A DNA stretch of 64,000 nt from Aquamicrobium zhengzhouense (GTDB taxonomy: Bacteria > Pseudomonadota > Alphaproteobacteria > Rhizobiales > Rhizobiaceae). The notes beneath the pieces are model-generated. The model had not been told where the DNA came from. It searched no databases and worked only from the letters and a program-made list of their open reading frames with translations. Below are positions 9,137 to 47,053 of this stretch, piece after piece; the stretch's first letter is position 1, and each line of letters begins with the position of its first letter. Location of the stretch: assembly GCF_016124105.1 (NCBI RefSeq), contig NZ_JADGMQ010000003.1, forward strand, positions 248,001 to 312,000, written 5' to 3'. The translations under genes and the position numbers were made by a program.

Positions 9137-9379
9137 TTAATCGGGTTCAGCCACAGATTGATCTGTGGCGGCGATGGCGATCGATATCCGCCTACACACC
9201 GTTAAGTTTGAACGATCCCATCGATCGAGCTCTTCGGTAGGATATAAGATCGCCTTGCCGATCTTGATATATGACGGCCCAATTCTCTTGCACCGCCAGT
9301 TTCGCAACGTACCGTCGCTGAGCTTGTTACGATAGCGTTCGACGACCTCTTCGCAGGTCAGATAAGCTGGACCAGACAC
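9137..9379 (-). CDS. AlpA/excisionase-like helix-turn-helix protein, copy 1
   Basis: The 80-residue protein has the small winged-helix layout of AlpA and excisionase proteins: LTCEEVVERYRN, then GTLRNWRCKRIGPSYIKIGKAILYP, then a short tail. It starts with GTG at 9379, preceded by TTGGAG 5 bases upstream; no ATG is available in frame. These proteins bind DNA and usually control excision or transcription of the mobile element that carries them. A 23-bp palindrome lies 27 bases upstream (9406-9428) and is a good candidate operator. The protein at 25221-25445 is a clear paralogue. Confidence 0.75.
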   Translation of the reverse strand: MSGPAYLTCEEVVERYRNKLSDGTLRNWRCKRIGPSYIKIGKAILYPTEELDRWDRSNLTVCRRISIAIAATDQSVAEPD

Positions 9380-9508: not shown

Positions 9509-9772
9509 CTATGCCTTGCGGCGATCCTCGCCGGCTCGCCGCGCTGCGGGAAGCACCTTTCGGCTGTTAGGATCCGATGTTGATCGCGTTGTGCCTAGGT
9601 CTGCCCAGGCCTTCAGGTCTCCAAGCGAGTAAACCACCCGACCGCCAAGTTTTCGGTAGGTGGGGCCTGTTCCATAAGTTCGATGCTTTTCGAGTGTCCT
9701 TGGGGACAATCCGAGAAAGAGCGCCGCCTCGTCTGTGCGGACATACCGCGTTGGAAGCTCGTTTAGTTGCAT
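9509..9772 (-). CDS. AlpA-like helix-turn-helix protein, copy 2
   Basis: The 87-residue protein (starting MQLNELPTRYVRTDEAA) has a MerR/AlpA-type helix-turn-helix: FLGLSPRTLEKHRTYGTGP followed by YRKLGGRVVYSLGDLKAW. It belongs to the same broad class as the proteins at 9137 and 25221 but to a different subfamily. The frame extends to 9826; ATG 9772 matches the usual family start. An inverted repeat (GCATGCC, 5 bases, GGCATGC) sits about 20 bases upstream and may be its operator. It is divergent from the helicase-nuclease gene at 10258 and probably regulates that cassette. Confidence 0.78.
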   Translation of the reverse strand: MQLNELPTRYVRTDEAALFLGLSPRTLEKHRTYGTGPTYRKLGGRVVYSLGDLKAWADLGTTRSTSDPNSRKVLPAARRAGEDRRKA

Positions 9773-9789
9773 GTGATTTCTCCGTGCTA

Positions 9790-9808
9790 TGCATGCCAAA
9801 ACGGCATG
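9790..9808. promoter_or_regulatory. Inverted repeat upstream of AlpA-like copy 2
   Basis: GCATGCC and GGCATGC are separated by AAAAC, giving a perfect 7-bp dyad just upstream of the start codon at 9772. The position fits an autoregulatory operator. This is inference from symmetry and location only. Confidence 0.45.
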
Positions 9809-9828
9809 CGCGCGCGGTGCTCCCATAA

Positions 9829-10257
9829 TTTCGTTTCAAAGGCGGACCTGCTAGTTGCGGAACAGGCCGATGAGTCAGGAGCTGTCATTCTTCTTCGCGC
9901 TTCTTGCGAGCTCGTCACGCGATAGTAAGTAGTTTATCGTCCGCCTCGCAAAATGCAGCAACGCGACTTACCTCTCCACGTAGATCGGGTTCAAGCGATA
10001 GGGGGAGATAGTAGACACCCTTGATGAAGTCGCGATTGAGCCGCTCTGCACAAAGGTCAGCTTTCTTGCAGGGGCTGGATGTCGGCAACTGGTGCTTGCT
10101 CGTAGAAGTATGGATACGCCACGAATATTTACCGCTTTCACATATTTCGAGTGGCCGTAAGGTCAGGCTGATACATCTTTGATTTGAGAATCAACAAGAG
10201 CCGTCGCGCCCGCAAAACCTGATCGCGGCGAGACGAAACTGTTTATCCTTGGGGGCT
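9829..10257. other. Leader of the helicase-nuclease cassette; open minus-strand frame
   Basis: About 430 bases without a confident gene. A minus-strand frame is open from 10190 to a stop at 9915-9917 (91 codons, ending in GEVSRVAAFCEADDKLLTIA), with gene-like codon choice in its second half but no ATG, GTG or placed ribosome-binding site, so it may be a decayed gene. The 16 bases TCGCAAAATGCAGCAA at 9946-9961 recur at 14070-14085, and the stretch from about 9801 resembles 13889 onward, so both modules share a related leader. Confidence 0.35.
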
Positions 10258-13200
10258 GTGGTGGAGTTGGAAGATCTTTTCGCGCGTGGCAGCCCGGACG
10301 ACGAGTCAATCGATCGTCGCGGCGGTCGTGTTTCACTCGATGCGGCCGTCGACACGCCAGCGATGCGGGCCGAGTTCCGCCGTCTCCTAGGACCTCTCGA
10401 CCAGATGGGTTTCTGGAGCGCGGCAGTCGACGAGGGCACATACCTGCCGGCGCGAGGCCTATGGGCCCCGCAAAGGCGTGCCGTCGGTCTATCGTTGGCA
10501 CACGTCGCAGCGCGGCGAACAACGGATGGGTCGACCGGCGCCGCTCTTATCAAGATGCCCACCGGAACGGGGAAAACCGGGGTCATCGCCACCGTCGCCT
10601 GCGCCGTGCCGCAAATCGCACGAGTTCTCGTGCTCACGCCCCGGCGTGCCCTCGTCGACCAGATGGTGCGCGACCTGCACACCCGACTTTGGAGCCGCTT
10701 CGACGCCATCTATGACGGCAATGAAGTCAGAGCTCGACGCGCCGACGATCCTGACGTCGGCTCCGCGGTTGCCAACGGTCCTGTCTGGCGGTTGCTGCCG
10801 AGCGCCGCTGAGCAACTCTCCCAGATCACCGATCCCAGGGTGGTTATGGTCGGAACCTTTTCAGCGCTTGAACAGGTGCTGCGCCCCGATCGGCCGGCTC
10901 ACAGGCTTTCCGGTCGACGCCCCCGGGGGTTCGATGCGGCACCACCTGAAGATGAAGAGGGAGATGATCCGTCCGAGGCGGCCCGAACTGCTCTGGTTAC
11001 CATGCTACGCGGCTTCGATCTCGTGATAGTCGACGAGAGTCACTACGAGCCGGCATTCGTTTGGTCTCAATGCATCCGCAGCCTGGGCAGACCAACGCTC
11101 CTGTTCAGTGCTACGCCCTATCGCAACGATTTTCGCTACTTCGATATAGACGGCCGCTTCGCCTTCAACCTGTCATTCCGAGAAGCGAGCGAGAAGTGCC
11201 TGATCCGAAACGTCAAGGTGGACACGACGCCGGCAGGCGAGGGCGAATCGTTCGCGCAGCGCGTGGTGCGTTTCTTGGGCGAAGTTGGCGCCAGCGCGAT
11301 GCCCCATGCTCCCGACGAAGCTCGGGTCATCGTGCGAGCGGAGTCGCACGATAGTCTCATTCGTCTGCGGGAGGAGCTGCGGCGCCTGGGACAACGCTGC
11401 GTCCTGATCCACCATAAGGAGACGCGCAGCAATCCAGCTTCGCTGCGCTTCGCCAATGCAATGCCAGCCTTCGACGCGCCTCAGACACGCGACGTACGGA
11501 TCTGGCTCCATCAATGGAAGCTGCTGGAAGGCGTCGACGACAGTCGGTTCTGCGGCGTGGCGGTTATGGAGCCCTTCTCGAATACGCGGGCCGTCATCCA
11601 GCAAATTGGGCGGGTGCTGCGATATCATCGCCGCGACCGGAGCGAAACGGCGCTTGTCATAGGCGACACCAACTTAGGCGACGACCTTGATGAGAGGTTT
11701 GAGCGCTATCTTGGCTATGAGGAACGCTTTGATGCCGATCCAGGCGACGCATTGAAGCGGGAGACTCAGTTCTTCCATACGCTGCGCGACGCCTCGCCCG
11801 CCGTCCAATACATCGCCGGCGACTTCCGCGATCGCTTTGAGCTTGACGGTGAGAGCGTAGGGTTCGGCGACATCCAGTTACCGATGCGAACATTCGTCAC
11901 TCGATCGAACGGAGCTTTGTCGCTCGACCAACTCGCCGCAGCGTCCGCGGAGGCGATGGGGCTGGAAGACCGTCACGACGCAACGGTCATCAAACCTGAG
12001 GGTGACGAGCCTACTAACATCCGCCTAGTGGTATACGTGGAGTGGAGCAACTCCCCATTGCTGATCAGCAAGGCGATGCCGAACTGGACGCTGGGAATTA
12101 TGGCCATCGTCAGCGTTGGACAGCGCGTGTTCCTGCTCGACACCGAAGGGCTTGTCGTCGACCCGGAACAGTTAGGACTGGAACCAGAGGGCCCCGAGAC
12201 CCTCCAACGTCTCGTTCCCGTATCCACGCACGATGAGGCTTGGAGGGTAACAGTAGCATCGGCCGTCAGCCTCGATATTTCCGATATGGGCATCCGGTCG
12301 ATGTCTGCACGCATGCGGGACTTCTCCGTTGGCTTCTTCGACCTGTCGCAGGGCATGCAGGCGACCACATCGGTCCGGGCATCAATGCGTCCGAAGACAG
12401 GCCCCGCGGAAACACGTTACCTCTCACTCCAGCGAGCCACGGTGTCGGACGCCCGCGCGGGATTTGTTGAAGTCACCGACTACGTTGAGTGGATCAACAA
12501 GCTGGCTGACCGCCTCGACTCGGCAATTGCGCCAAGCACGGCTTTTGCGCGCTTTGCCCAAGCGCTCCCAGCACCCGATGCAGCGCGGGCTGTACCGCAG
12601 AATATCCTCTTCGATTTTGCTGAGATCATCGGCGAGGACGGCGCATCGCCACCAGTTGGGTGGGACGCTGGTCGGACCCAAGCACTAGCCCATGCAGACC
12701 GGTGCCTTGATGTCGACGGCAATGGAGCGTTCAGCCTCGAGGTGGACGGCCGCAGCTTCGAAGGAAAAATCGCTTACACGATCACTGGCTCGACACGCCG
12801 TCGAGGCAAATACGTTATCGAAATACCCGATCTCGACGCCTTTCTGGTCAACCGGGATAGGGAAGCGTTGAAACAAGCTGAAAAGGCTCAGCTGCTTTCC
12901 GGAGTTCTGTCGCGGACCCAGCCGTTCCGAGTGGTCCCGCGCGACCCATCACTGGTCTATGCGCAGAAGTTTTTCTATCGCCCTTCGCTGGCCATCGATG
13001 TGGTCGCACGTGATGAGCCCGGCGGCCCCTTGGAGGCCATCATAGCTTCGCCCTGGCTTGCCCAGGTGACCTCCGAGAAGGGTAGCGCTACGTCGGGTCT
13101 CGATGACTGGGTGAACGAAAGCGTATTCGGCGGCATTTACGCTCATTTCGATCACGCCGGTCGCGGCCGGCCGGACGCCAGCAGACGCGATGCTATCAGG

Positions 13201-13731
13201 TCCGCCGACCCCGGACTGGCCGATGTTCTAGACGCCTTTGATGTCGTGATTTGCGACGACGGGGGGACCGAGACGTGCGATTTCCTCTGCATCGACAGAG
13301 CAGGCAGCAAGGTCGTCATGATCCATGCCAAGGTCGATGACACACAGATGAGCCTGAATTCCCTCCAGGAAGTTGGCCGTCAGGCTCAGGCAAGCCTCGG
13401 TCTGCTGACGTGGATTCATGAGTTTCCCGACCGAACGGTCCTCTGGCGTTCGCGCGTTCCGATCCAGCACGGCCACCTGACGCGGCGAGTGCTCAAAGGA
13501 CCTAGGGTGGAGGACGCGTGGCCAGAGGTTCGCGATGCACTCCGCTCGCCTCGCTATAATCGTGAAGCGTGGATCTTCGCGGGACGGATCCTTTCGCGTG
13601 AGCACTTCAAACGACAGCTGCAGCGCGTTCCACCTCCGCCGAAGCCTCGGCAGATGCTTTATTATCTAGCATCGCTCCAAACGTCCGCCGCCAGAGCCAA
13701 TGTGAGCATGCGGATATTCTGCTCGCCATGA
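10258..13731 (+). CDS. Large SF2 helicase with C-terminal nuclease-like domain (putative defence protein)
   Basis: The roughly 1,157-residue protein has superfamily 2 helicase motifs in the first half: Walker A PTGTGKT, Walker B DESH (VIVDESHYE), motif III FSATPYR and motif VI QQIGRVLR. The middle is unassigned. Near the C-terminus a block reading ETCDFLCID, then about nine residues, then MIHAK looks like the core of a PD-(D/E)XK nuclease. Large helicase-nuclease fusions of this type are common in phage defence islands and would translocate on and cut foreign DNA. The start is uncertain: TTG 10249, GTG 10258 and GTG 10261 are all possible, with a GGGGG box at 10251-10255; no ATG exists in frame. 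It sits inside a cassette bounded by palindromic repeats. Confidence 0.72.
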   Translation: MVELEDLFARGSPDDESIDRRGGRVSLDAAVDTPAMRAEFRRLLGPLDQMGFWSAAVDEGTYLPARGLWAPQRRAVGLSLAHVAARRTTDGSTGAALIKMPTGTGKTGVIATVACAVPQIARVLVLTPRRALVDQMVRDLHTRLWSRFDAIYDGNEVRARRADDPDVGSAVANGPVWRLLPSAAEQLSQITDPRVVMVGTFSALEQVLRPDRPAHRLSGRRPRGFDAAPPEDEEGDDPSEAARTALVTMLRGFDLVIVDESHYEPAFVWSQCIRSLGRPTLLFSATPYRNDFRYFDIDGRFAFNLSFREASEKCLIRNVKVDTTPAGEGESFAQRVVRFLGEVGASAMPHAPDEARVIVRAESHDSLIRLREELRRLGQRCVLIHHKETRSNPASLRFANAMPAFDAPQTRDVRIWLHQWKLLEGVDDSRFCGVAVMEPFSNTRAVIQQIGRVLRYHRRDRSETALVIGDTNLGDDLDERFERYLGYEERFDADPGDALKRETQFFHTLRDASPAVQYIAGDFRDRFELDGESVGFGDIQLPMRTFVTRSNGALSLDQLAAASAEAMGLEDRHDATVIKPEGDEPTNIRLVVYVEWSNSPLLISKAMPNWTLGIMAIVSVGQRVFLLDTEGLVVDPEQLGLEPEGPETLQRLVPVSTHDEAWRVTVASAVSLDISDMGIRSMSARMRDFSVGFFDLSQGMQATTSVRASMRPKTGPAETRYLSLQRATVSDARAGFVEVTDYVEWINKLADRLDSAIAPSTAFARFAQALPAPDAARAVPQNILFDFAEIIGEDGASPPVGWDAGRTQALAHADRCLDVDGNGAFSLEVDGRSFEGKIAYTITGSTRRRGKYVIEIPDLDAFLVNRDREALKQAEKAQLLSGVLSRTQPFRVVPRDPSLVYAQKFFYRPSLAIDVVARDEPGGPLEAIIASPWLAQVTSEKGSATSGLDDWVNESVFGGIYAHFDHAGRGRPDASRRDAIRSADPGLADVLDAFDVVICDDGGTETCDFLCIDRAGSKVVMIHAKVDDTQMSLNSLQEVGRQAQASLGLLTWIHEFPDRTVLWRSRVPIQHGHLTRRVLKGPRVEDAWPEVRDALRSPRYNREAWIFAGRILSREHFKRQLQRVPPPPKPRQMLYYLASLQTSAARANVSMRIFCSP

Positions 13732-14136
13732 CGCGTCGCCATTAACCTTCCGCCTTCTGGCGGACGTTCAGTTTCCGATTGTGGCATACCGCAGCCTCCA
13801 GCATCCGCCGTTGTAGGAATGACCCGTTTGGGTCGGTTCCCGAATTTGTGCAACAGCCTGTTGCACTGATGTAGGCACGATACGCATGCGCGCGGGCACT
13901 TCCACGATTCCGTCTAAAAGAGCGATCCGGCCGCAGTCGCTGACCTGTCCGGTCAAGCGCAAACTCTCGCCGCTATCGAGCCCGCGAGCTGATACTTGGC
14001 ATTACTTGGACGATTGAAGTGCTGATTGATAAAAAGAGTAGAAAATCATGGTATGTTTGGTCGGCCATCTCGCAAAATGCAGCAATGCAACCTAACTTTG
14101 AGTCAATATGAAAGCTTCGAGTGGGAGGGGGGAATT
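13732..14136. other. Inter-module region with decayed leader copy
   Basis: This 405-base gap contains the right copy of the palindromic repeat (13846) and, from about 13889, DNA resembling the leader at 9801-9850 (shared GCATGCGCGCG and TTTCAAAGGCGGACC-like text). Bases 14070-14085 repeat 9946-9961 exactly. I infer a duplicated or independently acquired module leader. No intact regulator gene is present here, unlike at 9509-9772. Confidence 0.45.
13846..13886. repeat. Palindrome-containing ~40-bp repeat, right copy
   Basis: TTGTGCAACAG, C, CTGTTGCAC at 13846-13866 is the counterpart of the 23-base palindrome at 9406. The central base differs and the last two bases are changed. Similarity continues about 20 bases further (GATGTAGGCACG versus AATGCAGGCGCG). 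Confidence 0.72.
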
Positions 14137-14361: not shown

Positions 14362-14364
14362 TTG

Positions 14365-17300
14365 ATGATCCGGGGGGCGTTCATTGGCATCGATAGGCAT
14401 GCGGATCCCTTCATCGGTGATCTGACCGGAGCCGCGCGCGACGCCACCGCGTTGTGGGCAGTGCTCTCTGACAGCATCGTCGACCTAGACGCCCCCCTCA
14501 TCACGGACGATGCGGCGACCCTGGCTACGATGCGCGATGTTCTCGACGCGACGCTTGGCGCTGCCGGTGAAGACGATGTGGTGATCCTCGGGTTCGCCGG
14601 ACACGGCACGCAGGACCACCGTCTGGTTCTGCATGATACGGACGTAGCCGATTTGCCGAACACGACGCTCGGCATGGACGAGCTGGCTCAGCGTTTTCGA
14701 GAGACCAGGGCGCGTGCAGTCATCCTCTTGCTTGATTGCTGCTTTAGTGGTGGTGCTCCGGCGCGCGTGATCGACGCCGGCCTAGTTCCCCGCGACGCTG
14801 TGGCTTTCCCGCTCGTTCAGGTGGCAGGTCAGGGACGTATCCTGTTCGCCGCATCGTCGGCCGATCAGGAAGCGCTCGAAGATCCCCAGTCGCGACACGG
14901 CCTCTTCACCAAGGCCGTCATTGACGTTTTGTTTGAGGCAAACGCCCCGCTAGGCGTGCTTGAGCTTGTCGATCGCGTTACTCGCCTTGTCACGGCGAAC
15001 GCTGGGCGATTTGGCTATATCCAATCGCCGACCATGTTCGGACAGACCGAAGGCGATCTTGTCCTGCCTCCTGGCCAGATCGGTGCCCGATATCGCGAAG
15101 CCTTTCCGGAACGCGTCAATTTTCAGACGACGGGCGACATCCGCGAATTGGCAGCTGCGGGCATTCCGCAAGAAGCGGTCGACGCATGGCATGAGCGCTT
15201 TCCCCAAGGGCTCAACGAACTTCAAATTGAAGCGGTCAACGAACAGGGGGTGCTGAACGGCAACTCTCTCATGGTCGTCGCGCCGACCAGCGCAGGAAAG
15301 ACTTTCATCGGCGAGTTGGCTGCGCTCAAGGCCATCGCGGATGGCCGCAAGGCCGTGTTCCTTCTGCCGTACAAGGCGCTTGTGAACGAGAAGTTCGAGG
15401 ACTTCTCGGCCCTTTACGGCGATCGTCTGGGGCTCCGGATCGCCCGATGCTCCGGCGATTGGCAAGATCAGGTCGGCACTGTTCTAAGGGGCAAGTACGA
15501 CATCGCGTTCTTCACCTACGAAAAATTCCTCAGCATGTCGGTCGCCTCCGCACACATGCTTAATCAGATCGGCTTGGTCGTGCTCGACGAGGCGCAGTTC
15601 ATCACCGAGCCAGGTCGTGGCATGGTGGTCGAACTGTTGCTCACCAATCTCGTGAGTGCCCGCCAGCGCGGCGTTGCTCCGCAGCTCATCACACTTAGCG
15701 CGGTTATCGGCCACGCTAACCATTTCGATCGCTGGCTCGGTTGTGACCTTTTGCAAACCGACCATCGCCCGGTTCCGCTGGTCGAAGGTGTCCTAGATAG
15801 GAGCGGTGCACTTGCGCGCCTGGGGCCGGGTGGTCCCGAAACCATTCAGCTCCTCGACCGCTTCGCGATCCGCCAGCGCGGGCAAAGGCAATCGTCGCAG
15901 GACGTGATCGTGCCACTGGTCCGCCATCTCATCGATGCTGGCGAGAAGGTCATTATTTTCCGCAATGCGCGTGGTCCGGCGAGCGGCTGTGCGAACTATC
16001 TTGCGGCAGAGCTTGGCCTTCCTGTGGCGCAAGCCGTGATCGACGCACTTCCCGAAGGCGACCGCTCCCAGACCTCGGAGAGTCTCCGCCGATCGCTCGA
16101 AGGCGGCATCGCGTTTCACAATGGCGATCTCACCCGCGATGAGCGCGTTGCCGTCGAGCGCGGATTTCGCCGGGCGGATGGCCAGATCAGGGCCCTCGTC
16201 GCGACCAGCACGGTTGCCGCGGGCGTGAACACGCCCGCATCCACCGTGATCATCGCCGAGACGGATTTCCCCGGGCGGGAGCGGCAGCCCTATACGGTGG
16301 CTCAGTATAAGAACATGGCGGGCCGCGCCGGTCGGTTGGGGTTCGAGGCCGAGGGAAAGGCAATCCTGCTCGCCGATACCGCCATGGAGCGTAATCAACT
16401 GTTCCGGCAGTATGTGCAAGGTCAGCCGGAGGTCATCCGGTCATCGTTCAATCCGAACCAGCCGGGAACCTGGGTGATCCGCTTGCTTACGCAGGTTAGA
16501 GATGTTCCGCGCGGTGCCGTCGTTGACCTGATCGCGAACACCTATGGAGGTTATCTCGCCGCCCTCCAGAATCCGGCATGGCGCGATCGCATGGTTCCTA
16601 CACTGGAGCAGCTGTTGGACCGCATGATCGCGGATGGCCTGATCGAAGAAGACGCCGATAATCTCCGCCTGACCATGCTTGGGCGTGCCTGTGGCGAGTC
16701 TCCCCTCACACTCGAGTCCGCGATGCGCCTGGTTGAGCTGTTGCGTCGCGTTGATCCGGCCGACGCGACGCTAGAAGCTCTCCTTGTTCTCGTCGAATGT
16801 CTGCCGGAGCGCGACGAGGACTACACACCGCAAACCCGCAATGGTGAGCCGCGGTGGCAGCAGGCCGCTCTTGGCCGCTTCGGACATGGCGTGGGCCGCG
16901 CGTTGCAGCATCGTGCCGAAAGCGATGTCGCGTTCTATGGCCGATGCAAGCGCGCGCTCATCGTGAGCGATTGGATTGCTGGCGAACCGACCAATGATAT
17001 CGAGGCTCGGTACTCGTCTAATGCCTTTGTCAGGGTAGGGCACGGCGACATTCGTGGTTACGCGGATGGCTCTCGCTTCCTATTGGAGTCCGCGCTGCGC
17101 ATAGCAGCGATCGTGCTGGAGCGGGCCGAGGAACAAGAGGCGGCAGCGCTATTGCTCACCCGGCTTGATCTCGGCCTTCCAGTCGAAGCGTTGCCCTTGA
17201 GCACGCTTGGCTTTCCGCTGACACGGGGGGAAATTCTCGCACTATTTCGAGCCGGTCATTTGAACCGAGAGGCAATCGCTGCCTTAACCGCAGATGCTGT

Positions 17301-17373
17301 TGCTGGAATCATCGGCCGGCGCGGACGTGAACTGCATGAGGCGATGCAGCCCGTTCTACCAGGGGTAATCTAG
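14365..17373 (+). CDS. Caspase-like protease fused to a Ski2/Hel308-like helicase
   Basis: The 1,002-residue protein begins with a C14 caspase/metacaspase-like domain (residues 1 to about 235): the catalytic histidine is H80 in FAGHGTQ and the catalytic cysteine is C126 in DCCFSGG, the DxCxSG form. A superfamily 2 helicase follows: APTSAGKT near residue 305, DEAQ near 407, and the diagnostic Ski2/Hel308 motifs ATSTVAAGVNTPA and QYKNMAGRAGR near 610-650, then a helical C-terminal region. A plausible model is nucleic-acid recognition by the helicase that triggers proteolysis and cell death or effector cleavage. TTG 14362 precedes ATG 14365; the ATG is preferred. It lies 3 bases after DUF2158 and 65 bases before the sigma-like gene. 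Confidence 0.85.
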   Translation: MIRGAFIGIDRHADPFIGDLTGAARDATALWAVLSDSIVDLDAPLITDDAATLATMRDVLDATLGAAGEDDVVILGFAGHGTQDHRLVLHDTDVADLPNTTLGMDELAQRFRETRARAVILLLDCCFSGGAPARVIDAGLVPRDAVAFPLVQVAGQGRILFAASSADQEALEDPQSRHGLFTKAVIDVLFEANAPLGVLELVDRVTRLVTANAGRFGYIQSPTMFGQTEGDLVLPPGQIGARYREAFPERVNFQTTGDIRELAAAGIPQEAVDAWHERFPQGLNELQIEAVNEQGVLNGNSLMVVAPTSAGKTFIGELAALKAIADGRKAVFLLPYKALVNEKFEDFSALYGDRLGLRIARCSGDWQDQVGTVLRGKYDIAFFTYEKFLSMSVASAHMLNQIGLVVLDEAQFITEPGRGMVVELLLTNLVSARQRGVAPQLITLSAVIGHANHFDRWLGCDLLQTDHRPVPLVEGVLDRSGALARLGPGGPETIQLLDRFAIRQRGQRQSSQDVIVPLVRHLIDAGEKVIIFRNARGPASGCANYLAAELGLPVAQAVIDALPEGDRSQTSESLRRSLEGGIAFHNGDLTRDERVAVERGFRRADGQIRALVATSTVAAGVNTPASTVIIAETDFPGRERQPYTVAQYKNMAGRAGRLGFEAEGKAILLADTAMERNQLFRQYVQGQPEVIRSSFNPNQPGTWVIRLLTQVRDVPRGAVVDLIANTYGGYLAALQNPAWRDRMVPTLEQLLDRMIADGLIEEDADNLRLTMLGRACGESPLTLESAMRLVELLRRVDPADATLEALLVLVECLPERDEDYTPQTRNGEPRWQQAALGRFGHGVGRALQHRAESDVAFYGRCKRALIVSDWIAGEPTNDIEARYSSNAFVRVGHGDIRGYADGSRFLLESALRIAAIVLERAEEQEAAALLLTRLDLGLPVEALPLSTLGFPLTRGEILALFRAGHLNREAIAALTADAVAGIIGRRGRELHEAMQPVLPGVI

Positions 17374-17438: not shown

Positions 17439-18293
17439 ATGAAGCAGTTGGGGGGAGCCGTTGGTGCGATGGGAGTGGCAGGACCGAGCGGCGCGGGTGA
17501 AATGATAGCTAACTCGCTTCGAAAACGTCGGCTCAATGGGGAACTTTACGAGCGCGATCCGAAGGTAGAAGCGCTCATCGCCGAATTGGCGATCCTGCCG
17601 CGTGACGAGTTGATTGCCAGGGCGGAAATCACCAAGCGTTCCGACCCGGGCTACATCCCTAGCGAATGTCTCGTCTATTTCATTCGCGCGAGCCGTCGAG
17701 ACAACAACGAGGCGTGGTTCGAACGCCTCTATCGGATCCTGATCGGACGGGTGCTGCGCAGCTTGCCCAAGGAAAGCTCTGATGGCAGGACGGAATCGCT
17801 GACGCGCGGGGTCGTGCGCGACCAGGTGTTCAGCCGGTTCGTCGAGCTCCTTTCGGCGGATCGCGCCGACTATGCCGACAAGCTCGACTATTTCGAGGTG
17901 CGCTTTGATGGCGCGCTGGCAAGCCTGCGGCGCGATGCGCAGGAAAAGGCCTGGCGCGACGAAAATCGTTCCCAGCCCCTCGAATATGACGAGGAGAGTG
18001 GTGAACTGTCACCAGAGGTCGAGGCGGCCGCGGGGGCCCACGATCCCTTCGCCGCGTCGGATTTCGACGATCCGGCTTACCGGTCGCGCCTGGATGGAGC
18101 GATTGAAGCTCTACCGATAGAACAAAGCAGGATCATTCACATGCTCAGACAAGGCTTTCCCATCGACTCGAAGGAACCGGACGTCATGACCATCGCCAAG
18201 GCCCTGGGCCGCTCCGAAAAGACGATCCGAACCTACCGTGACAAGGCCTTCGCCACCCTGCGAGCCGCCATGACCAACGGAGACGAGCGGTGA
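17439..18293 (+). CDS. Sigma-70-like helix-turn-helix protein
   Basis: The 284-residue product has a C-terminal region 4-type helix-turn-helix (IEALPIEQSRIIHMLRQG, then IAKALGRSEKTIRTYRDKAF) like those of ECF sigma factors. The preceding part (about 95-170) resembles region 2 in spacing but is divergent. It may be a true alternative sigma factor for the operon or a DNA-binding adaptor. Starts at 17397, 17439 and 17502 are possible; 17439 has an AGAGGGCGG box. Its stop overlaps the GTG of the next gene (GTGA), so the pair is translationally coupled. Confidence 0.7.
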   Translation: MKQLGGAVGAMGVAGPSGAGEMIANSLRKRRLNGELYERDPKVEALIAELAILPRDELIARAEITKRSDPGYIPSECLVYFIRASRRDNNEAWFERLYRILIGRVLRSLPKESSDGRTESLTRGVVRDQVFSRFVELLSADRADYADKLDYFEVRFDGALASLRRDAQEKAWRDENRSQPLEYDEESGELSPEVEAAAGAHDPFAASDFDDPAYRSRLDGAIEALPIEQSRIIHMLRQGFPIDSKEPDVMTIAKALGRSEKTIRTYRDKAFATLRAAMTNGDER

Positions 18294-18868
18294 GCCCCGC
18301 CGGTGCACGACCATCCCGCGAGTCCGTGCTCGACGCGTTCGCCGTTGAGAGCGAGCCTGGCCGCTCGACCCTAGAACGCTATCTGCGGCTTTACCCAGAA
18401 TATGCTGGGGAGCTCGTCGACCTCTCGCGCGAACTCCGCCGCGAGTCTTACGAAGACGCCGCACCCCTCTCTTCTGGCGATCAGGCGCTGATCGATGCGG
18501 CTTGGTCGCAACACGCGAAGGCTGTGCCGGCGGCGGCACCCGACCCTTTCGCGGCGCTGACGGTTGATGACTGGCGCACCGTCGCCCAGGATTTGGACGT
18601 GCCCCGACAGGTCGTGACCGCGCTGCGCGAACGGCGGGTCTCTCTCGTCAGTATCCCGCGACGCTTCCTGGCGATGTTAGCTGAGGCGATGCGCAGCTCT
18701 GTCGCGCAGTTGGAGTCGTCCTGGGAGCCAGCTCCGCTGCTCGTCGCGCGCAGCTACAAGGCCGATAATAAGCCGGCGGCGGGCGAGCAGGTCACCTTCG
18801 AGCAGGTGCTGATCGACGCTGGCGTTCCGGCCGAGATGCGCGCCAGATTGCTGGCGGAGGCTGACTGA
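18290..18868 (+). CDS. Uncharacterised protein coupled to the sigma-like gene
   Basis: A 192-residue, mostly helical, acidic protein without membrane segments. I do not recognise a family. It begins at GTG 18290, overlapping the sigma-like stop by 4 bases, and ends one base before the ImmA/IrrE-UvrD gene. Its first third (ESVLDAFAVESEPGRSTLERYLRLYPEYAGELVDL) looks like a short helical bundle, as in some serine/threonine-kinase-associated or anti-sigma proteins. The coupling suggests it partners or restrains the sigma-like protein, but this is inference from position only. Confidence 0.6.
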   Translation: MSPAGARPSRESVLDAFAVESEPGRSTLERYLRLYPEYAGELVDLSRELRRESYEDAAPLSSGDQALIDAAWSQHAKAVPAAAPDPFAALTVDDWRTVAQDLDVPRQVVTALRERRVSLVSIPRRFLAMLAEAMRSSVAQLESSWEPAPLLVARSYKADNKPAAGEQVTFEQVLIDAGVPAEMRARLLAEAD

Positions 18869-22352: not shown

Positions 22353-23099
22353 ATGACTACCGAAGAACTTCTTGATTACGACGATCTCGGCGACGCCCTG
22401 CGCGAAGGCCGGGCGTTGCGTCCGGCGCGGGAATATCGCTTTCTCCTCGCGCAGGGCGATCTCAACTTCAAGTCCCGCGTGGTGAGCGATCCCGTGCCGC
22501 TCGGTCGCCAGTTGCTTGAGGCCGCGGCGCTCGACCCGCGGGACGGCTACAGCCTCTTCGCGATCCTGCCCTCGGGCGATTTCGAGGATGTGAGGCTTAA
22601 CGAGCCGTTCGACCTGCGTGAGCGCGGTGCCGAGCGATTCATCGTCTTTCAGACCGATCGCGACTTCAAGCTGACCCTCAACGACGACGAGCTGCGCTGG
22701 GGCAAACCGGCCATCAGCGGCACGATCCTCTATGGCCTCGCTAAGCCGGGTGAAGGCGAGGGAGTCTTCCTCGAAGTCCCTGGCGGCGAAGATCGCCTTG
22801 TCGAACATGGTGACCTGATCGATCTGACCGAGCCCGGCATCGAGCGGTTTATCACCGCGCGGCTGACGTTCGAGATCGTCGTCAATTCGCGGCCGCGCAC
22901 GGTGAACGCCCGCACGGTCACGTTCGAGCAGATCGTCCAGCTCGCCTTCCCGGGCCAGCACGAGCTCAACGTCGTCTTCTCGATGACTTACCGGCACGCG
23001 GCATCGACGCCGCACGCTGGTGAGCTCGGGGCTGGCGGCTCCGTCGATGTCAAGAAGAAGGGCACGGTGTTCAATGTCACGCGCACTGTTCAGTCTTAA
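22353..23099 (+). CDS. Multi-ubiquitin-like (three beta-grasp) protein
   Basis: The 248-residue protein contains three tandem beta-grasp repeats (about 26-98, 104-168 and 171-248), matching the Multi_ubiq family of prokaryotic ubiquitin-like proteins. The third ends in the family-typical VFNVTRTVQS. There is no C-terminal di-glycine, as in many polymeric bacterial forms, where the chemistry of attachment differs from eukaryotic ubiquitin. Its 3' end overlaps the E1-like gene by 26 bases. With the following two genes it forms a ubiquitin-like conjugation module of the type linked to antiphage defence (Bil/Bub-like operons). Confidence 0.85.
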   Translation: MTTEELLDYDDLGDALREGRALRPAREYRFLLAQGDLNFKSRVVSDPVPLGRQLLEAAALDPRDGYSLFAILPSGDFEDVRLNEPFDLRERGAERFIVFQTDRDFKLTLNDDELRWGKPAISGTILYGLAKPGEGEGVFLEVPGGEDRLVEHGDLIDLTEPGIERFITARLTFEIVVNSRPRTVNARTVTFEQIVQLAFPGQHELNVVFSMTYRHAASTPHAGELGAGGSVDVKKKGTVFNVTRTVQS

Positions 23100-24246
23100 T
23101 CCGGACCTCAAGCGGCTGCTGGATGAGGGTTACTTCGTCCAGCAGCAGGGTGGACATCTCGTTATGCGCGAGGTGCCCTACGTCGATGCGCGCCGGGAGG
23201 TGCGCATCGGCACTCTCATCTCCAGCCTCACGCTGGCCGGAGATCACACGCGCACCCCCGACACCCACGTCGTCCATTGGGACGGTGACTTTCCGTGCCA
23301 CGCCGATGGCTCGCCTATCCAGGGCATCTCGCACGCGGCAGGCGCCTTCGATCTCGGCCATGGCCTGAAGGCGACGCACAGCTTCTCGAGCAAACCGGAT
23401 GGAGGGTACGCCGACTACCACCATAAGATGACGAGCTACGCGAACATCATTGCGGGGCCGGCTGCGGTGTTGAAGCCCGGCGCGACGGCTCGTACCTTCC
23501 GTGAGCCGGAAAAAGAGGAAGAGATCGTCTTCAATTACGTCGAGACCGCCTCCGACCGTGTCGGAATTGGCGTCCTGACCGAACGGCTCATCAACGAACG
23601 AGTCGCCATCATCGGCGGCGGCGGCACCGGCGGCTACATTCTGGATTTCGTCGCCAAGACGCCGGTTCGTGAAATTCGACTCTTCGACAGCGACGAGTTC
23701 CTGACCCACAACGCGTTTCGCGCGCCGGGTGCTCCGAGTCTGGAGGAACTGCGAGAAGCGCCGAAGAAGGTTGACTATCTGAAGCGCATCTACAGCCGGA
23801 TGCATCGGAATATTGTGGCGCACGACATCGCGCTCGGCGTCGACAACATCCATCTCCTTGACGGCATCACCTTCGCATTCCTGTCCCTCGATGCGGGTGA
23901 CGCGAAGCGGTTGATCGTCGAGAAGCTCGAGGCGATTGGTGCCGCGTTCGTCGATGTCGGTATGGGCCTTGAGCTCGATGAGGGATCGCTCGGCGGCATC
24001 CTGCGGGTGACCGCCAGCACGCCGGAGAAGCGGGATCACGCCCGGCAGCGCATCTCCTTCGCTGGCGGCGGCGCGAAGGACATCTACGCGTCCAACATTC
24101 AAGTCGCGGATCTCAACGCCTTGAATGCCGTCCTCGCGGTCGTGAAGTGGAAGAAGATCCGCGGATTCTATCGCGATCTCGAGCGCGAGCACCACTGCAC
24201 CTACACCACCGATGGCAACATGCTGATCAATGGGGACCTTGGGTGA
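23074..24246 (+). CDS. ThiF-family E1-like adenylyltransferase with N-terminal E2-like/DUF6791 region
   Basis: The 390-residue protein has an N-terminal domain (about 1-150) with the conserved cysteine C75 in DGDFPCHADG and an HHKMTSYANIIAGPA segment, which matches the domain that precedes ThiF in multi-ubiquitin operons and may serve as E2. Residues 175-340 are the E1 adenylation domain: IGGGGTGG at 180-187, then RLFDSDEF and THNAFRAPG for ATP and Mg binding. A cysteine near the end (HHCTYTT) could be the E1 thioester site. It would activate the triple ubiquitin-like protein. The start overlaps the upstream gene and the stop overlaps the DUF6527 start by one base. Confidence 0.85.
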   Translation: MSRALFSLNPDLKRLLDEGYFVQQQGGHLVMREVPYVDARREVRIGTLISSLTLAGDHTRTPDTHVVHWDGDFPCHADGSPIQGISHAAGAFDLGHGLKATHSFSSKPDGGYADYHHKMTSYANIIAGPAAVLKPGATARTFREPEKEEEIVFNYVETASDRVGIGVLTERLINERVAIIGGGGTGGYILDFVAKTPVREIRLFDSDEFLTHNAFRAPGAPSLEELREAPKKVDYLKRIYSRMHRNIVAHDIALGVDNIHLLDGITFAFLSLDAGDAKRLIVEKLEAIGAAFVDVGMGLELDEGSLGGILRVTASTPEKRDHARQRISFAGGGAKDIYASNIQVADLNALNAVLAVVKWKKIRGFYRDLEREHHCTYTTDGNMLINGDLG

Positions 24247-24683
24247 TGCGTCACAAGCGACTCGATCATCGTTTCCTCGAACATATTCCTGAACGCCTGG
24301 AGCCAGGCGTCCTCTATATTTCGATGGGATATGCGACATCGGCCCATAGCTGCTGCTGCGGTTGCGGCGAGGAGGTTGTGGCGCCCTTCACGCCGACCGA
24401 TTGGAAGATGACGTTCGACGGCGAGACCGTCTCGCTTCGGCCGTCGATCGGTAATTGGAGCTTGAAGTGCCGGTCACACTACGTGATCGATCGCGGCAAG
24501 GTGATTAAAGCCGGCCCTTGGAGTGACGAGCAGGTTGAAGCAGAGCGTCGTCGTGATCGCGCTGCCAAAACACAGTTTTACGGGCAGGCGCCAAAGATTG
24601 AACCTTCTGTTCAGTCTGCTCCTGTGAAGGCGGCGCCAAGCTTCTGGCGTCGGATCTGGAACTGGATATCTGGCAGGTCGTAA
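24246..24683 (+). CDS. DUF6527 protein of the ubiquitin-like module
   Basis: The 145-residue protein has the DUF6527 pattern: a CCCGCGEEVVAPFTP cluster, then RPSIGNWSLKCRSHYVI, suggesting a bound metal (cysteines near residues 35-38 and 77) and a conserved Ser-His pair. Families in this position are thought to process or remove the ubiquitin-like modifier (BubE-like), but I cannot confirm catalysis from sequence. The C-terminal tail after residue 125 ends in an amphipathic FWRRIWNWI stretch that could touch the membrane. The ATG at 24246 overlaps the E1 stop, so it is translationally coupled. It is the last gene of the locus. Confidence 0.8.
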   Translation: MRHKRLDHRFLEHIPERLEPGVLYISMGYATSAHSCCCGCGEEVVAPFTPTDWKMTFDGETVSLRPSIGNWSLKCRSHYVIDRGKVIKAGPWSDEQVEAERRRDRAAKTQFYGQAPKIEPSVQSAPVKAAPSFWRRIWNWISGRS

Positions 24684-25220: not shown

Positions 25221-25445
25221 TCAGTCCTCGGTCTGCACGTTGATTCGTCCTGTGGCACGGCAGGGTACCTTGTTCTGCTCATCCCAAGCTTCAAGCTCGC
25301 CGGCTGGGTAGAGGACAGCTTTGCCGATCTTTACGAAGGATGGACCTATGCGCATTGCTCTCCAATTTCTCAGTGTACCAACAGAAACGCTCCCACGATA
25401 ACGCTCTGAGACTTCTTCAGGGGTAAGAAATCTGTTCTCTGTCAT
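25221..25445 (-). CDS. AlpA/excisionase-like helix-turn-helix protein, copy 3
   Basis: The 74-residue protein (FLTPEEVSERYRG, then GTLRNWRAMRIGPSFVKIGKAVLYP) is a close paralogue of copy 1 at 9137-9379, sharing the GTLRNWR-xRIGPS-KIGKA-LYP core. It begins with ATG at 25445 with GGAGAC upstream. Together the two copies border the defence block on both sides in the same orientation. It is probably a DNA-binding regulator or recombination directionality factor; no integrase is adjacent. Confidence 0.78.
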   Translation of the reverse strand: MTENRFLTPEEVSERYRGSVSVGTLRNWRAMRIGPSFVKIGKAVLYPAGELEAWDEQNKVPCRATGRINVQTED

Positions 25446-36998: not shown

Positions 36999-37029
36999 TT
37001 GACCTTCCCATGGTTGGAAGCCCCATCTT
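36999..37029 (+). promoter_or_regulatory. CueR-type promoter of copA1
   Basis: TTGACC at 36999-37004 and CATCTT at 37024-37029 with a 19-base spacer holding the dyad CTTCC and GGAAG. It lies 41 bases before the copA1 start. Confidence 0.75.
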
Positions 37030-37069
37030 CTGCCCGAACTGGAATTTCGGGACAAGAAAGGAGGCGGCT

Positions 37070-39628
37070 ATGAATGCCCCCGTTCAAGCAACAGACCTGT
37101 CCGGGACGATCTCGCTCCCCATCGAGGGAATGACCTGCGCTTCCTGCGTCGGTCGCGTTGAAAGGGCCCTCAAGGCCGTGCCCGGCGTCGCCGATGCCGT
37201 CGTCAACCTGGCGACAGAAAAGGCGAGCATCACCACGAAGGTCCCTGTCGATGCCTCCACGCTCGTCAAGGCTGTGGAGGATGTGGGCTATGAGGTTGCG
37301 GCAAGCTTCTCCGCGCCTGTGGCGGCCTCGCTTGAGCTGGCGGTCGAGGGGATGACCTGCGCATCCTGCGTGGGTCGCGTTGAAAAGGCGCTCAAGGCCG
37401 TGCCCGGCGTCACCAATGCCGTCGTCAACCTCGCGACCGAAAGGGCCACGATCAAGGGCAGTGCCGATGTGGCAGCCTTGGTGGCGGCAATAGAGAACGC
37501 CGGATACGACGCCAAGGTGATCGCAGCAGACGCCCGGGGCAGCCAGTCCGAAACGGATGATCGTGCCGAGAAGAAGGAAGCTGAGCGCCGTGAACTGACC
37601 CGCGATTTCACGATTGCTGTGCTGCTGACCGTGCCTGTCTTCATCCTGGAGATGGGCTCGCACGTCATCCCCGGCATGCATGACCTGATCGCTTCGACCA
37701 TCGGCATGCAGATGAACTGGTACATCCAGTTCCTGCTAACGACCATCGTCCTGTTCGTTCCGGGTATCCGCTTTTATGATAAGGGGCTTCCGGCACTGTG
37801 GCGGCTCGCCCCCGACATGAACTCCCTGGTCGCTGTCGGCACACTCGCGGCTTACGGTTATTCGCTGGTCGCGACCTTCGCACCCGGCTTCCTGCCTGCC
37901 GGAACGGTGAACGTTTATTTCGAGGCCGCAGCCGTCATCGTGACGCTGATCCTGCTCGGCCGTCTGCTGGAGGCGCGTGCCAAGGGGCGCACGTCCGAGG
38001 CGATCAAGCGTCTTGTCGGCCTTCAGGCCAAGATGGCGCGCGTGCGCAGGGACGGCAAGACGGTTGAACTGCCGATCGATTCCGTTCTGGCCGGAGACAT
38101 CGTCGAGGTTCGGCCCGGCGATCGCATCCCGGTGGATGGCAAGGTCATCGAAGGCGAGAGCTATGTCGACGAATCGATGATCACCGGTGAGCCGATCCCG
38201 GTTTCCAAGGGAAACGGCAGCGAGGTCGTGGCCGGAACGGTGAACCAGAAGGGCGCCTTTGCCATTCGAGCAATAGCAGTCGGCGGCAACACCGTTCTGT
38301 CGCAGATCATCCGCATGGTCGAGGACGCGCAGGGCTCCAAGCTGCCGATCCAGGCGCTGGTCGACAAAGTCACGATGTATTTCGTGCCGGCCGTCTTCGC
38401 CGTCGCAGCCCTAACCTTTGCGGCCTGGCTCTGGTTCGGGCCGTCGCCCGCGCTCACTTTCGCGCTGGTCAACGCCGTCGCGGTTCTGATCATCGCCTGC
38501 CCTTGCGCCATGGGCCTGGCTACGCCGACCTCGATCATGGTCGGCACGGGCCGCGGTGCCGAGCTGGGCGTGCTCTTCCGCAAGGGCGAAGCGCTGCAAT
38601 TGCTGAAAGACGCCAAGGTCGTCGCAGTCGACAAGACGGGCACGTTGACGGAAGGCAAACCGGCTCTCACCGATCTGGAACTGGCCGCCGGATTTGAGCG
38701 CGCAGATGTGTTGGCTCTGGTCGCGGCCGTCGAGGCCAAGTCCGAACACCCGATCGCCCGCGCGATCGTGGACGCGGCCGCCGCGGAGAACATCTCACTG
38801 CCGGACGTGTCGGACTTCGAATCGGTGACAGGTTTCGGCGTGAAGGCTGCGGCCGGTGGCAAGCGGGTCGAGATAGGCGCTGACCGCTACATGAGCGAAC
38901 TCGGTCACGACGTGGCGGCGTTCTCCAAGGTCGCCGAACGCCTCGGCGATGAAGGTAAGTCTCCGCTCTATGCGGCGATCGACGGCAAGCTCGCGGCGAT
39001 CATCGCTGTGGCTGATCCCATCAAGGAGACGACGCCGGCCGCCATCAAGGCGCTGCACGATCTTGGCCTAAAGATCGCGATGATCACTGGCGACAACAAG
39101 CGCACGGCCAAGGCCATTGCCGCGCGGCTGGGCATCGACGAGGTGGTGGCGGAAGTGCTGCCGGACGGCAAAGTCGACTCGATCCGTCGCCTCAAGGCCG
39201 AGCATGGCAAGGTCGCCTTCGTCGGTGACGGCATCAATGACGCGCCGGCGCTGGCCGAGGCGGATGTGGGCCTTGCCATCGGCACCGGCACGGACATTGC
39301 CATCGAGGCTGCCGACGTGGTGCTGATGTCGGGCAGCCTGCAAGGCGTGCCGAACGCGATCGCGTTGTCCAAGGCGACGATCGGCAACATCCGGCAGAAC
39401 CTGTTTTGGGCCTTTGCCTACAACACGGCTCTGATCCCCGTTGCCGCTGGCCTGCTCTATCCGGCTTACGGCATCCTGCTGTCGCCCGTCTTCGCCGCCG
39501 GCGCGATGGCCTTGTCGAGCGTCTTCGTGCTCGGCAATGCGCTGAGGCTCAAGACCTTCCGCGCCCCGGCACAGGCTGAAAGCGGTGCCGTCCGGCACCG
39601 TCAGCCGGAACTTGCACCCGCGGAATAA
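37070..39628 (+). CDS. copA: Cu(I)-exporting P1B-ATPase CopA (two HMA domains)
   Basis: The 852-residue pump has two N-terminal heavy-metal-associated domains (MTCASC at 21-26 and at 95-100), eight membrane helices with the Cu(I) site C477-P-C479, the phosphorylated D521 in DKTGTLTEG, an HP motif ([10 protein letters not shown]), and the C-terminal hinge [10 protein letters not shown]. This is the P1B-1 type that moves Cu(I) from the cytoplasm to the periplasm. ATG 37070 has an AAAGGAGG box. The glutaredoxin, ferredoxin-reductase and cueR genes follow on the same strand. Confidence 0.96.
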
Positions 39629-39682
39629 GAACAGACGAGCTTGCTTCGGCAGGCTCGCCACATCTGCGAAAGGGATGAAGCG

Positions 39683-39945
39683 ATGACCAATTCAGGAACT
39701 CCGTCGGTGCTGCTTTATACAACGCCAACCTGCCCCGATTGCCATGCCGTTAAGCGGTGGCTTGCAGATCAGGGTGTGCCGTTCGAAGAACGGGACCTGT
39801 CAGATCCGCAGATCGCCGAAGAGGCGAAAGCGCGGACCGGCGTGCGCGTTGCCCCGATCACCATCGTCAATGAACAGGTCTTCTACGGAACCTTCGCCGA
39901 CCAGAACCCCGCCTTGCGGAGGCTCTGTCATCGAACATCGCCTGA
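39683..39945 (+). CDS. Glutaredoxin-like protein with apparent frameshift near its end
   Basis: The N-terminal 75 residues form a glutaredoxin (LLYTTPTCPDCHAVKRWL, then VRVAPITIV and the FYGTFADQNP segment), with a dithiol CPDC active site. The uninterrupted frame goes on to 40150 through unrelated text that overlaps the next gene by 193 bases. In the neighbouring frame the text after the CCCC at 39907-39910 reads RLAEALSSNIA and a stop at 39943-39945, a natural end just before the next gene's ribosome-binding site. One missing C in the CCCC run would join the two, so the given coordinates assume that indel. Confidence 0.72.
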
Positions 39946-39957
39946 GGGGAGATTGTC

Positions 39958-40971
39958 ATGGCAAGACGAATCGAAATCCGGCAGGCGGCGCGCACTATCG
40001 ACGTGCCGGACGGCCGAACCATTCTGGAGAGCGCGCTGGAAGAAGGGTTCGCATACCCTCATGGATGCCGTTCGGGTCGCTGCGGCTCCTGCAAGTCCCG
40101 ACTGCTCAGCGGCGAGGTCGGCCTTCTGCCGCATACGCGCTTTTCCCTGACGGACGATGAGCGGGCTCAGGGATTGATCCTCGCATGCCGCGCGCAGCCG
40201 CTTACGGACTGCGCGGTCGCATGGCTCGACGAGGACGAGGAACAGCTTGATCTTCCCGTCCGCACCTTTCGGACGCGGGTCGTCGCGATCGATGACGCAA
40301 CCCACGACATCCGGCAAATCAGGCTGGAGATCGAAACGGGAGAGACCGTCACGTTCAAGGCGGGCCAGTATGCGCAGGTGACGTTCGACGGCGTTCCGGC
40401 GCGCGACTATTCGATGGCGAACCGGCCGGGTCGAGCCCAACTCGAATTCCACATAAGACATGTGCCCGGTGGAGCGACGAGCGAACACATCGCCAGGTCG
40501 CTCAAGGTCGGCGACGAGGTTACGGTTCGCGGACCTCTCGGCAGCTCGTTTCTGCGCGAACAGCATACGGGACCGATTCTGTCAGTTGCCGGCGGATCGG
40601 GACTGGCGCCGATCAAGTCGATTGTCGAAACGGCACTGACAAGCGGCCTGCGGCGGCCGATCCATCTTTATTTCGGGGCGCGGACGGAACGTGATCTCTA
40701 TCTCATCGAACATTTCAATCTTCTAGCGAGCACTTACGGCAACCTCACGTTCACTCGTCCTTTCCAAGGTCAGCCGATCCGAACACTTCCGAACCGGCCT
40801 AGTAACGGATGCGATCGTGAGCGACGTCAGAATCTCGATGGCTGGAGGGCCTATATGGCCGGACCGCCTGCCATGATCGATGCCTCCAGCATCATGCTTC
40901 GCGAGTTGGGATTGCGCGCTGAGGACATACATGCGGACGTGTTTTTTACGCCCGAAAAAGCGCTTATATGA
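39958..40971 (+). CDS. [2Fe-2S] ferredoxin-flavin oxidoreductase (FAD/NAD) in the copper operon
   Basis: The 337-residue protein has an N-terminal plant-type ferredoxin domain with CRSGRCGSC and a fourth cysteine near residue 80, then an FAD-binding domain (RDYSMAN near 150) and an NAD-binding domain (AGGSGLAPIKSI near 220), as in naphthalene dioxygenase reductases. Between about residues 267 and 290 the reading (QPIRTLPNRPSNGCDRERRQ) is unlike the family, whereas the next frame over the same DNA reads RTGLVTDAIVSDV as expected; two compensating single-base indels near 40757 and 40832 would explain it. Partners are unknown; a role in copper reduction is conceivable. Confidence 0.8.
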   Translation: MARRIEIRQAARTIDVPDGRTILESALEEGFAYPHGCRSGRCGSCKSRLLSGEVGLLPHTRFSLTDDERAQGLILACRAQPLTDCAVAWLDEDEEQLDLPVRTFRTRVVAIDDATHDIRQIRLEIETGETVTFKAGQYAQVTFDGVPARDYSMANRPGRAQLEFHIRHVPGGATSEHIARSLKVGDEVTVRGPLGSSFLREQHTGPILSVAGGSGLAPIKSIVETALTSGLRRPIHLYFGARTERDLYLIEHFNLLASTYGNLTFTRPFQGQPIRTLPNRPSNGCDRERRQNLDGWRAYMAGPPAMIDASSIMLRELGLRAEDIHADVFFTPEKALI

Positions 40972-40991
40972 GCGGATGAAAGGAACTGGGG

Positions 40992-41507: not shown

Positions 41508-41509
41508 GC

Positions 41510-41716
41510 ATGACCCTTGCCGGCGAAATCCTGCACCTGTTCAAACGAGCATGTTCGGACGGCGACATGGAAGTTGCCGAGAAGCTACTGCAAGCCCTTG
41601 AACTGATTGATGCGCGAGGACTCGGCGCCGCAGCTTCGGATAAGCCGTTGTCTCAAGCCTATCTGGCTATCGGTGAGCTCCCTGTGCCTCCGAAAAAATG
41701 TCAGCGGCCTCATTAA
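41510..41716 (+). CDS. Small uncharacterised protein after cueR
   Basis: The 68-residue product reads MTLAGEILHLFKRACSDGDMEVAEKLLQALELID, a helical hairpin resembling a short ankyrin- or TPR-like element, then a proline-rich tail with one cysteine. No family recognised. Starting 3 bases after cueR, it is probably co-transcribed. Confidence 0.5.
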   Translation: MTLAGEILHLFKRACSDGDMEVAEKLLQALELIDARGLGAAASDKPLSQAYLAIGELPVPPKKCQRPH

Positions 41717-41828
41717 GACATCATGTGTTCAGTGAGACCCCAGAATGGGACTAGGAATGCCGACTTCGCAGGTCAATAACCACTCGCGTACGAGCGGATC
41801 ACGATTCGGAGGCGGTTGACTGCGAAAT

Positions 41829-42275: not shown

Positions 42276-42370
42276 TCAGCCTGCTCTGTAAGCTGTTTGG
42301 AACCGTCCAGACTGTCTAATTCAAAGCAAGTCATTGCGATACCTCATGCAGTGGAACCCTTAGTCGGCTG

Positions 42371-47024: not shown

Positions 47025-47053
47025 CGGGCAGGAATCGGGATTCCTATCACCTC

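Follow-up and report, generated by a model that had tools for sequence, protein, structure and literature searches.

A putative Bub-related ubiquitin-like conjugation cassette in a conserved six-gene unit of Aquamicrobium zhengzhouense

What do three tightly packed genes of Aquamicrobium zhengzhouense, located at positions 22353-24683 of a 64,000-nucleotide stretch of its genome (the whole of which is hereafter called the window), accomplish together, and do they act alone? A previous sequence-only reading interpreted them as a three-gene ubiquitin-like conjugation module, composed of a triple beta-grasp ubiquitin-like protein (Ubl), an E1-like enzyme and a DUF6527 protein. Our analyses place this trio as the second half of a six-gene unit that starts at about position 17439, and we consider the chances evenly balanced that this unit is a conjugation cassette for a ubiquitin-like protein, related to Bub and governed by a controller that responds to DNA damage.

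The identity of the three genes was confirmed by their Pfam matches. Three stretches of the Ubl matched Multi_ubiq (E 1.8e-60), the enzyme matched DUF6791 (E 2.8e-60) and the third gene matched DUF6527 (E 5.8e-25), the ThiF match of the enzyme lying slightly below the Pfam cut-off (27.5 versus 28.1 bits). The NCBIfam model of the enzyme, PRK06153.1-1, is named only 'hypothetical protein' (E 2.7e-211); the PADLOC models for E1-E2 proteins cover it from residue 144 onward only (best E 1e-6), and no PADLOC model matched the Ubl or the DUF6527 protein. The overlaps between the genes, also noticed previously, amount to 26 bp between Ubl and enzyme and to 1 bp between the enzyme stop and the DUF6527 ATG, which meet at position 24246. 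The conserved start of the enzyme is the ATG at 23074, its open reading frame (ORF) being itself open from a GTG further upstream at 23020, and the cysteine previously singled out as C75 is correctly placed when numbered from this ATG.

A protein search of GTDB contigs recovered 66 homologous loci (L002-L067). At 70% coverage, the alignments retained 64 enzyme rows, 53 Ubl rows and 60 DUF6527 rows, and 50, 51 and 51 for the three genes upstream; the 65 aligned enzymes referred to below correspond to the window and 64 of the 66 loci, the other two falling below the coverage filter. Six genes were found on one strand and in a fixed order (sigma-like, 192-residue protein, ImmA(M78)-UvrD-PDDEXK, Ubl, DUF6791-ThiF, DUF6527) in 49 of the 54 loci with room for them, with median spacings of -4, 1, 81, -26 and -1 bp and outliers up to 1576 bp. 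Going by the record titles, the unit is found among others in Alpha-, Beta- and Gammaproteobacteria, Myxococcus, Silvibacterium, Gemmataceae, Akkermansiaceae and Verrucomicrobiales, and because the arrangement recurs in several phyla it is not due to chance. Furthermore, pairwise distances correlate between 0.912 and 0.979 for every pair of genes, as calculated from 24 dereplicated loci out of the 40 found in all six alignments. The three-gene extent assumed earlier is consequently too small, six genes being in the unit, whereas the conjugation part of that claim is supported by the E1 fold and the invariant cysteine described below.

The end of the Ubl was examined in the 65 loci with room for the tail and the gene overlap (L032 having none). 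As stated previously, there is no di-glycine: the tail follows the pattern N-V-T-x-T-x-x-S with few departures, and the terminal serine is present in all 65 loci and in all 36 non-redundant variants. The serine codon is always TCN (TCG in 46 cases, TCT in 16 and TCA in 3), and the enzyme residues 3, 4, 7 and 8 encoded within the same overlap vary while the serine stays fixed, residue 8, opposite the serine codon, simply following it as R (CGT), L (CTT) or H (CAT). Selection therefore acts on the Ubl end. Since the protein already ends at its conserved serine, no trimming is needed, which fits the missing JAB peptidase. The nearest solved Ubl chain is 9cd2 (E 8.2e-29), and the closest solved structures also include BilA of Methylobacterium.

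In the enzyme, C75 is a cysteine in 65/65 aligned sequences. It belongs to an H-x9-C arrangement with a glycine between, and only one of 40 motif variants has another residue in place of the histidine; the canonical E2 motif, H-P-N...C, has the same spacing from histidine to cysteine. C75 is presumably the active site of the enzyme and might take over the task of a separate E2. A C-terminal cysteine proposed along with it, C375, was ruled out as the E1 catalytic cysteine, being C in only 46 of the 65 rows and S in 15. For the E1 half, BubCD was the best match of the enzyme profile in the PDB (E 2.5e-6), about sixty-fold ahead of UBA5 (1.5e-4), with MccB following (1.9e-4), whereas the search with the single sequence placed MccB at the top (E 0.006). 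BubCD also came first in a Foldseek search with the enzyme model, and in VIA comparisons the model aligned with Citrobacter BubCD over 225 residues of the E1 half (Z 24.0, rmsd 2.9), ahead of E. coli ThiF (Z 23.0) and MoeB (Z 21.5). The VIA matches barely reach residues before 149, so that the DUF6791 region, modelled as a helix, four strands, the cysteine, a hairpin and a helix, is barely touched by them. Prok-E2_B, a further E2 yardstick, matched in 0 of 115 genomes, yet it matched no control genome either.

The DUF6527 protein keeps H34, C36, C38, C40, C75, S77 and H78 in the branch of the window (32 sequences), whereas among 13 wider sequences only C36, W53, P66, S67 and H78, numbered as in the window protein, never change and the other cysteines vary. 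Its AlphaFold2 model (pLDDT 86.8) found a best Foldseek E of 0.43 and VIA Z scores of at most 2.8, poor matches that do not show a new fold. Proteins of this family coexist with a JAB peptidase in standard Bub-type operons, and that of the window matched the one encoded by a Citrobacter plasmid (BLASTP E 2e-5).

The three upstream genes would constitute the controller. The large ImmA-UvrD protein conserves both its HExxH motif and its Walker A motif in 52/52 rows. D-x-K-T-G is the nuclease motif of PDDEXK domains, and its catalytic Asp is absent in all 51 rows with sequence there; on this ground the domain is probably a DNA-binding pseudo-nuclease, fused to helicase and peptidase. Four cysteines kept in the same 51 rows may be iron-sulphur ligands. 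The sigma-like homologue in L070 is annotated as sigma-70, and among 24 homologues of the 192-residue protein all matches were weak (Cro/C1 helix-turn-helix (HTH) in two, Xre-like HTH in one, YfcL in two).

These elements lead us to the following scheme, in which the chemical steps, the cleavage, their order and the targets are inferred. With its helicase and degenerate nuclease domain, the ImmA-UvrD protein would bind DNA that is single-stranded or broken, which would switch on the M78 peptidase; this would cut the 192-residue protein, acting as a repressor or anti-sigma factor, so that the sigma-like protein would be freed and the operon transcribed. The ThiF half of the enzyme would then adenylate the triple Ubl at its C-terminal serine. 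The Ubl would move on to C75 of the DUF6791 domain fused to ThiF (acting as E2) and from there reach its targets, among which may be proteins of the adjacent module, a caspase-helicase in the window. The DUF6527 protein may be an accessory factor, either a deconjugase or a target-binding protein.

Several observations weigh against this scheme. As for the controller, the sigma-like gene fits sigma models weakly (NCBIfam sigma factor E 1.7e-4, far below the cut-off; Pfam Sigma70_r4_2 E 0.012) and its homologue in L071 is labelled 'DNA-binding response regulator', the 192-residue protein has no Pfam match and is not recognisable as a repressor, and among the 54 loci with room L048, L056 and L066 are devoid of all three controller genes and L029 and L030 of the first two; the trio can therefore occur without the controller. 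As for the enzyme, the lead of BubCD in fold is so small that it is nearly tied with ThiF. The notion that the C75 domain substitutes for an E2 survives in that the cysteine could serve, but no sequence similarity supports the E2 identity of DUF6791, its comparison with the Bub E2 family (Prok-E2_E) giving an hhalign probability of 0.5% from shallow profiles (Neff ~2.5) and without a positive control, and its profile finding no PDB match under E 1.4. Moreover, according to PMC13373217, phage protection by Bub operons is not yet demonstrated.

DUF6791 moreover sits where BubCD carries its JAB domain, a position that would suit a peptidase too, and it might accordingly be a cysteine-dependent deconjugase replacing JAB, with transfer proceeding without any E2, from the adenylate or by another factor. 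The Citrobacter plasmid operon, in which JAB lies N-terminal to ThiF in exactly this place, speaks for such a role, as do nine aligned Bub-type E2 candidates without a conserved cysteine, so that the family may be capable of a transfer that bypasses any E2 cysteine. We nevertheless hold it to be unlikely, given that the Ubl ends at its serine in every locus scored, leaving no maturation cut to be made, that the H-x9-C spacing is E2-like, and that no histidine after C75 in DUF6791 figures in the lists of invariant and nearly invariant residues. Less probable still is an enzyme that modifies the Ubl C-terminus with no protein conjugation at all, in the manner of MccB on its peptide or of ThiF and MoeB on sulfur carriers: the single-sequence search and the closeness in fold of these proteins agree with it, as does a tail other than Gly-Gly, but the profile search puts BubCD well in front, and three Ubl domains together with a fused cysteine domain would be superfluous.

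The proximity of the Ubl to 9cd2 brings up another function, since triple Ubls of this kind, reportedly studied by Gong et al. in 2025, are said to form calcium-dependent filaments; that filament assembly is the main activity here and conjugation a secondary one is very improbable, as it leaves the invariant C75 and the conserved tail unexplained. Finally, the six genes might be mere neighbours in defence islands, the controller not controlling the trio. The trio does occur without the controller in the three loci named above and in the viral contig L098, and many flanks are defence genes; we nonetheless regard this as highly unlikely, considering an order kept in 49/54 loci of several phyla with tight median spacings, and gene distances that correlate while the flanking modules change. 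A conjugation cassette with a damage controller remains our preferred reading.

Table 1. Positions of the main features within the window
Feature	Positions	Strand	Basis
Caspase-Hel308-like helicase, associated exchangeable module directly upstream	14362..17373	+	PF00656, PF00270, Hel308-type models
Sigma-70-like protein	17439..18293	+	ATG 17439, ORF open from GTG 17379; weak sigma matches
Conserved 192-aa protein, no family assigned	18290..18868	+	No Pfam match; weak HTH hints
ImmA/IrrE (M78) peptidase-UvrD helicase-PDDEXK protein, 1133 aa	18870..22271	+	PF06114, PF00580, PF12705
Triple beta-grasp Ubl, 248 aa, end -NVTRTVQS	22353..23099	+	PF14452
Ubl/enzyme gene overlap, 26 bp	23074..23099	+	Equal length in 65/65 loci with room
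DUF6791-ThiF/E1 fusion enzyme, 390 aa	23074..24246	+	PF20590; E1-half match to Citrobacter BubCD
C75 codon, sole invariant cysteine of the enzyme	23296..23298	+	Alignment conservation
DUF6527 protein, 145 aa	24246..24683	+	PF20137

Comparison of the flanks shows that the neighbours change and the six-gene core (Table 1) stays. The six core proteins of L002 are 83 to 95% identical to those of the window, whose caspase-helicase is only 38% identical to the downstream one in L002-like loci; its homologues in L019 and L062, which immediately precede the core, are 94% and 96% identical to it. Neighbours were classified by clustering the nearest same-strand large ORFs of 49 loci, with one or a few members of each cluster annotated. 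AbiEii-type proteins were found upstream in 19 loci, and caspase-helicases and related helicases on either side in 14, the one annotated member of the helicase group L010, L011 and L015 having no caspase match. AddB-like PDDEXK proteins followed in seven loci, metallophosphatases in groups of three (including L014, without a Pfam match) and two, and SAVED/CD-NTase and DUF2130 proteins in two each. The remaining neighbours formed groups of three or fewer or occurred singly, such as a MukF-MukB set (L063), BrxL (L067), a RelA/SpoT-domain protein (L033) and an Eco57I-type methylase (L031); some flanks were unremarkable, with a zinc dehydrogenase (L059), UPF0014 (L050) and an integrase (L052).

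DUF6791 was present in 7 of 299 genomes of the phylum, counting the window's own. Relatives of the enzyme occurred in 115 of 72,556 plasmid records, 103 of them spanning at least 80% of the query, and in three viral contigs, and none matched among 50,697 phage records. In one of the viral contigs, L098, a single-domain Ubl, a DUF6791-ThiF enzyme and a DUF6527-like protein are encoded at 9727-11598, flanked by genes for a DnaB-like helicase and a terminase; the Ubl ends in -DVRNTDKS and its gene again overlaps the enzyme gene by 26 bp. In L008, titled Kiritimatiellae, the enzyme is 94% identical to that of the window, reflecting either a recent transfer or a mis-binned contig.

Within the window, no direct repeat of at least 22 nt brackets the island. 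Excisionase-like HTH_17 genes lie on the minus strand at both of its ends (9137-9379, 9509-9826 and 25221-25445), and inspection by eye revealed genes for P-type ATPases of the heavy-metal kind and a conjugation (type IV secretion) cluster at 37010-49510 and 54279-63689, suggesting that the window is part of a mobile element or close to one. A 37-nt direct repeat (81% identity, 16 bp exact) has its copies at 9937-9973 and 14061-14097, each about 300 bp ahead of a large helicase gene (10249 and 14362, respectively), where a shared operator or promoter is possible. Its 16-bp core was also considered as an operator of the controller and dropped, being confined to the window and found in 0 of 104 other loci. 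The second large helicase (DEAD/ResIII, 10249-13731) matches the PADLOC candidate PDC-S71 with its C-terminus (E 2.6e-20) and has a single weak match (23%, L030) among the 66 related loci. The small RNA ar14 of alphaproteobacteria (Rfam RF02344) was detected at 1718-1834.

The literature searched mentioned neither DUF6527 nor DUF6791 and, not including the main Bub papers, contained no description of the six-gene set. A broader and more doubtful proposal is that DUF6791 represents a new E2-like carrier fused to an E1 for a Ser-ended Ubl which, together with a new portable damage controller, makes up a cassette licensing or restraining, by tagging, swappable DNA-targeting modules (caspase-helicase, CBASS-, AddAB-, SbcCD- or MukBEF-like). 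Our results suggest that bacterial ubiquitin-like pathways exchange their carrier and peptidase part (Prok-E2_E and JAB versus DUF6791), and also the end of the Ubl (Gly versus Ser) and the damage controller. A Ser-ended Ubl and an enzyme with a single invariant cysteine constitute a simple system for studying the chemistry that a pathway of this kind requires, and the exchanged neighbours are a source of candidate substrates.

Among known systems, Bil shares with the cassette a Ubl and an E1-type enzyme, but the separate E2 and JAB genes of Bil operons, as given in PMC11354881, find no match among the window proteins scanned. CBASS Cap2 and E1-E2 fusions (PADLOC E1-E2) likewise pair an E1 with a putative cysteine carrier domain within one protein; their models differ in matching the enzyme only beyond its first 143 residues, and no CD-NTase family matched any of the eight window proteins scanned. 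On the regulatory side, the controller resembles CapH+CapP in having an ImmA/M78 metallopeptidase beside a small gene, near immune or Bub-type operons. Indeed, HTH and ImmA genes stand beside four Bub-type operons of plasmids, and ImmA and unnamed small genes beside a fifth. The window peptidase differs in its fusion to UvrD and an Asp-less PDDEXK domain and in its additional sigma-like gene, and the small protein is no clear HTH repressor. PMC13373217 describes CapP as a protease activated by single-stranded DNA that cleaves the repressor CapH, and counts, among 544 Bub operons, 219 with CapW or CapH+CapP and 59 with CapK+CapS. An ImmA-UvrD protein sensing damage through its helicase would fit this CapP/CapH logic.

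The closest counterpart is Bub (Citrobacter BubA-BubB-BubCD; PDB 9ea4, 9ea5, 9ea8, 9eae and 9eav). A piece of BubCD led, at 88% identity, to a Citrobacter plasmid operon consisting of two regulators, a Ubl-Prok-E2_E fusion, a JAB-ThiF protein and DUF6527. Both systems have a multi-domain Ubl (BLASTP E 5e-18 between the window Ubl and the plasmid BubA-B protein), a ThiF-type E1 for which BubCD is the best match in profile and fold, a tie to DNA-damage controllers, and a DUF6527 gene after the E1, listed in 7 of 9 Bub-type plasmid regions, the gene table being incomplete so that its absence from L086 and L089 is not implied. The cassette differs in that no protein scanned in the window matched Prok-E2_E (PF14462) or JAB, the latter present in the plasmid BubCD, its place being taken by DUF6791 with its invariant cysteine. 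The nine Bub-type E2 candidates mentioned above share no cysteine column, four of them having been verified by Pfam as Prok-E2_E and L089 being a doubtful member. A review mentions a specific protease in Bub operons (PMC12687455), which in the plasmid operons could equally be the JAB domain. The Ubl ends also differ, serine here and, in the JAB-type Ubls examined, at or near glycine: the last residues in L083-L087 are ...EG, or G followed by one to three others, and the Ubls of L068 and L082 continue into the E2 after ...NNG, the Ubl of L089 ending in Ser; a glycine end may be a defining trait of Bub.

The controller, consisting in the cassette of the sigma-like, 192-residue and ImmA-UvrD proteins, further separates it from Bub. 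At positions 1475-9088 of L100, from a genome of the same class, homologues of these three proteins (34%, 28% and 48% identity, respectively) precede a Bub operon of the JAB type, with Ubl and Prok-E2_E-like, JAB-ThiF-like and DUF6527-like genes. Directly upstream of them, a Fic-like gene was recognized by eye. Controller and conjugation part are therefore separable and recombine, and the cassette is a variant related to Bub and not a standard Bub operon.

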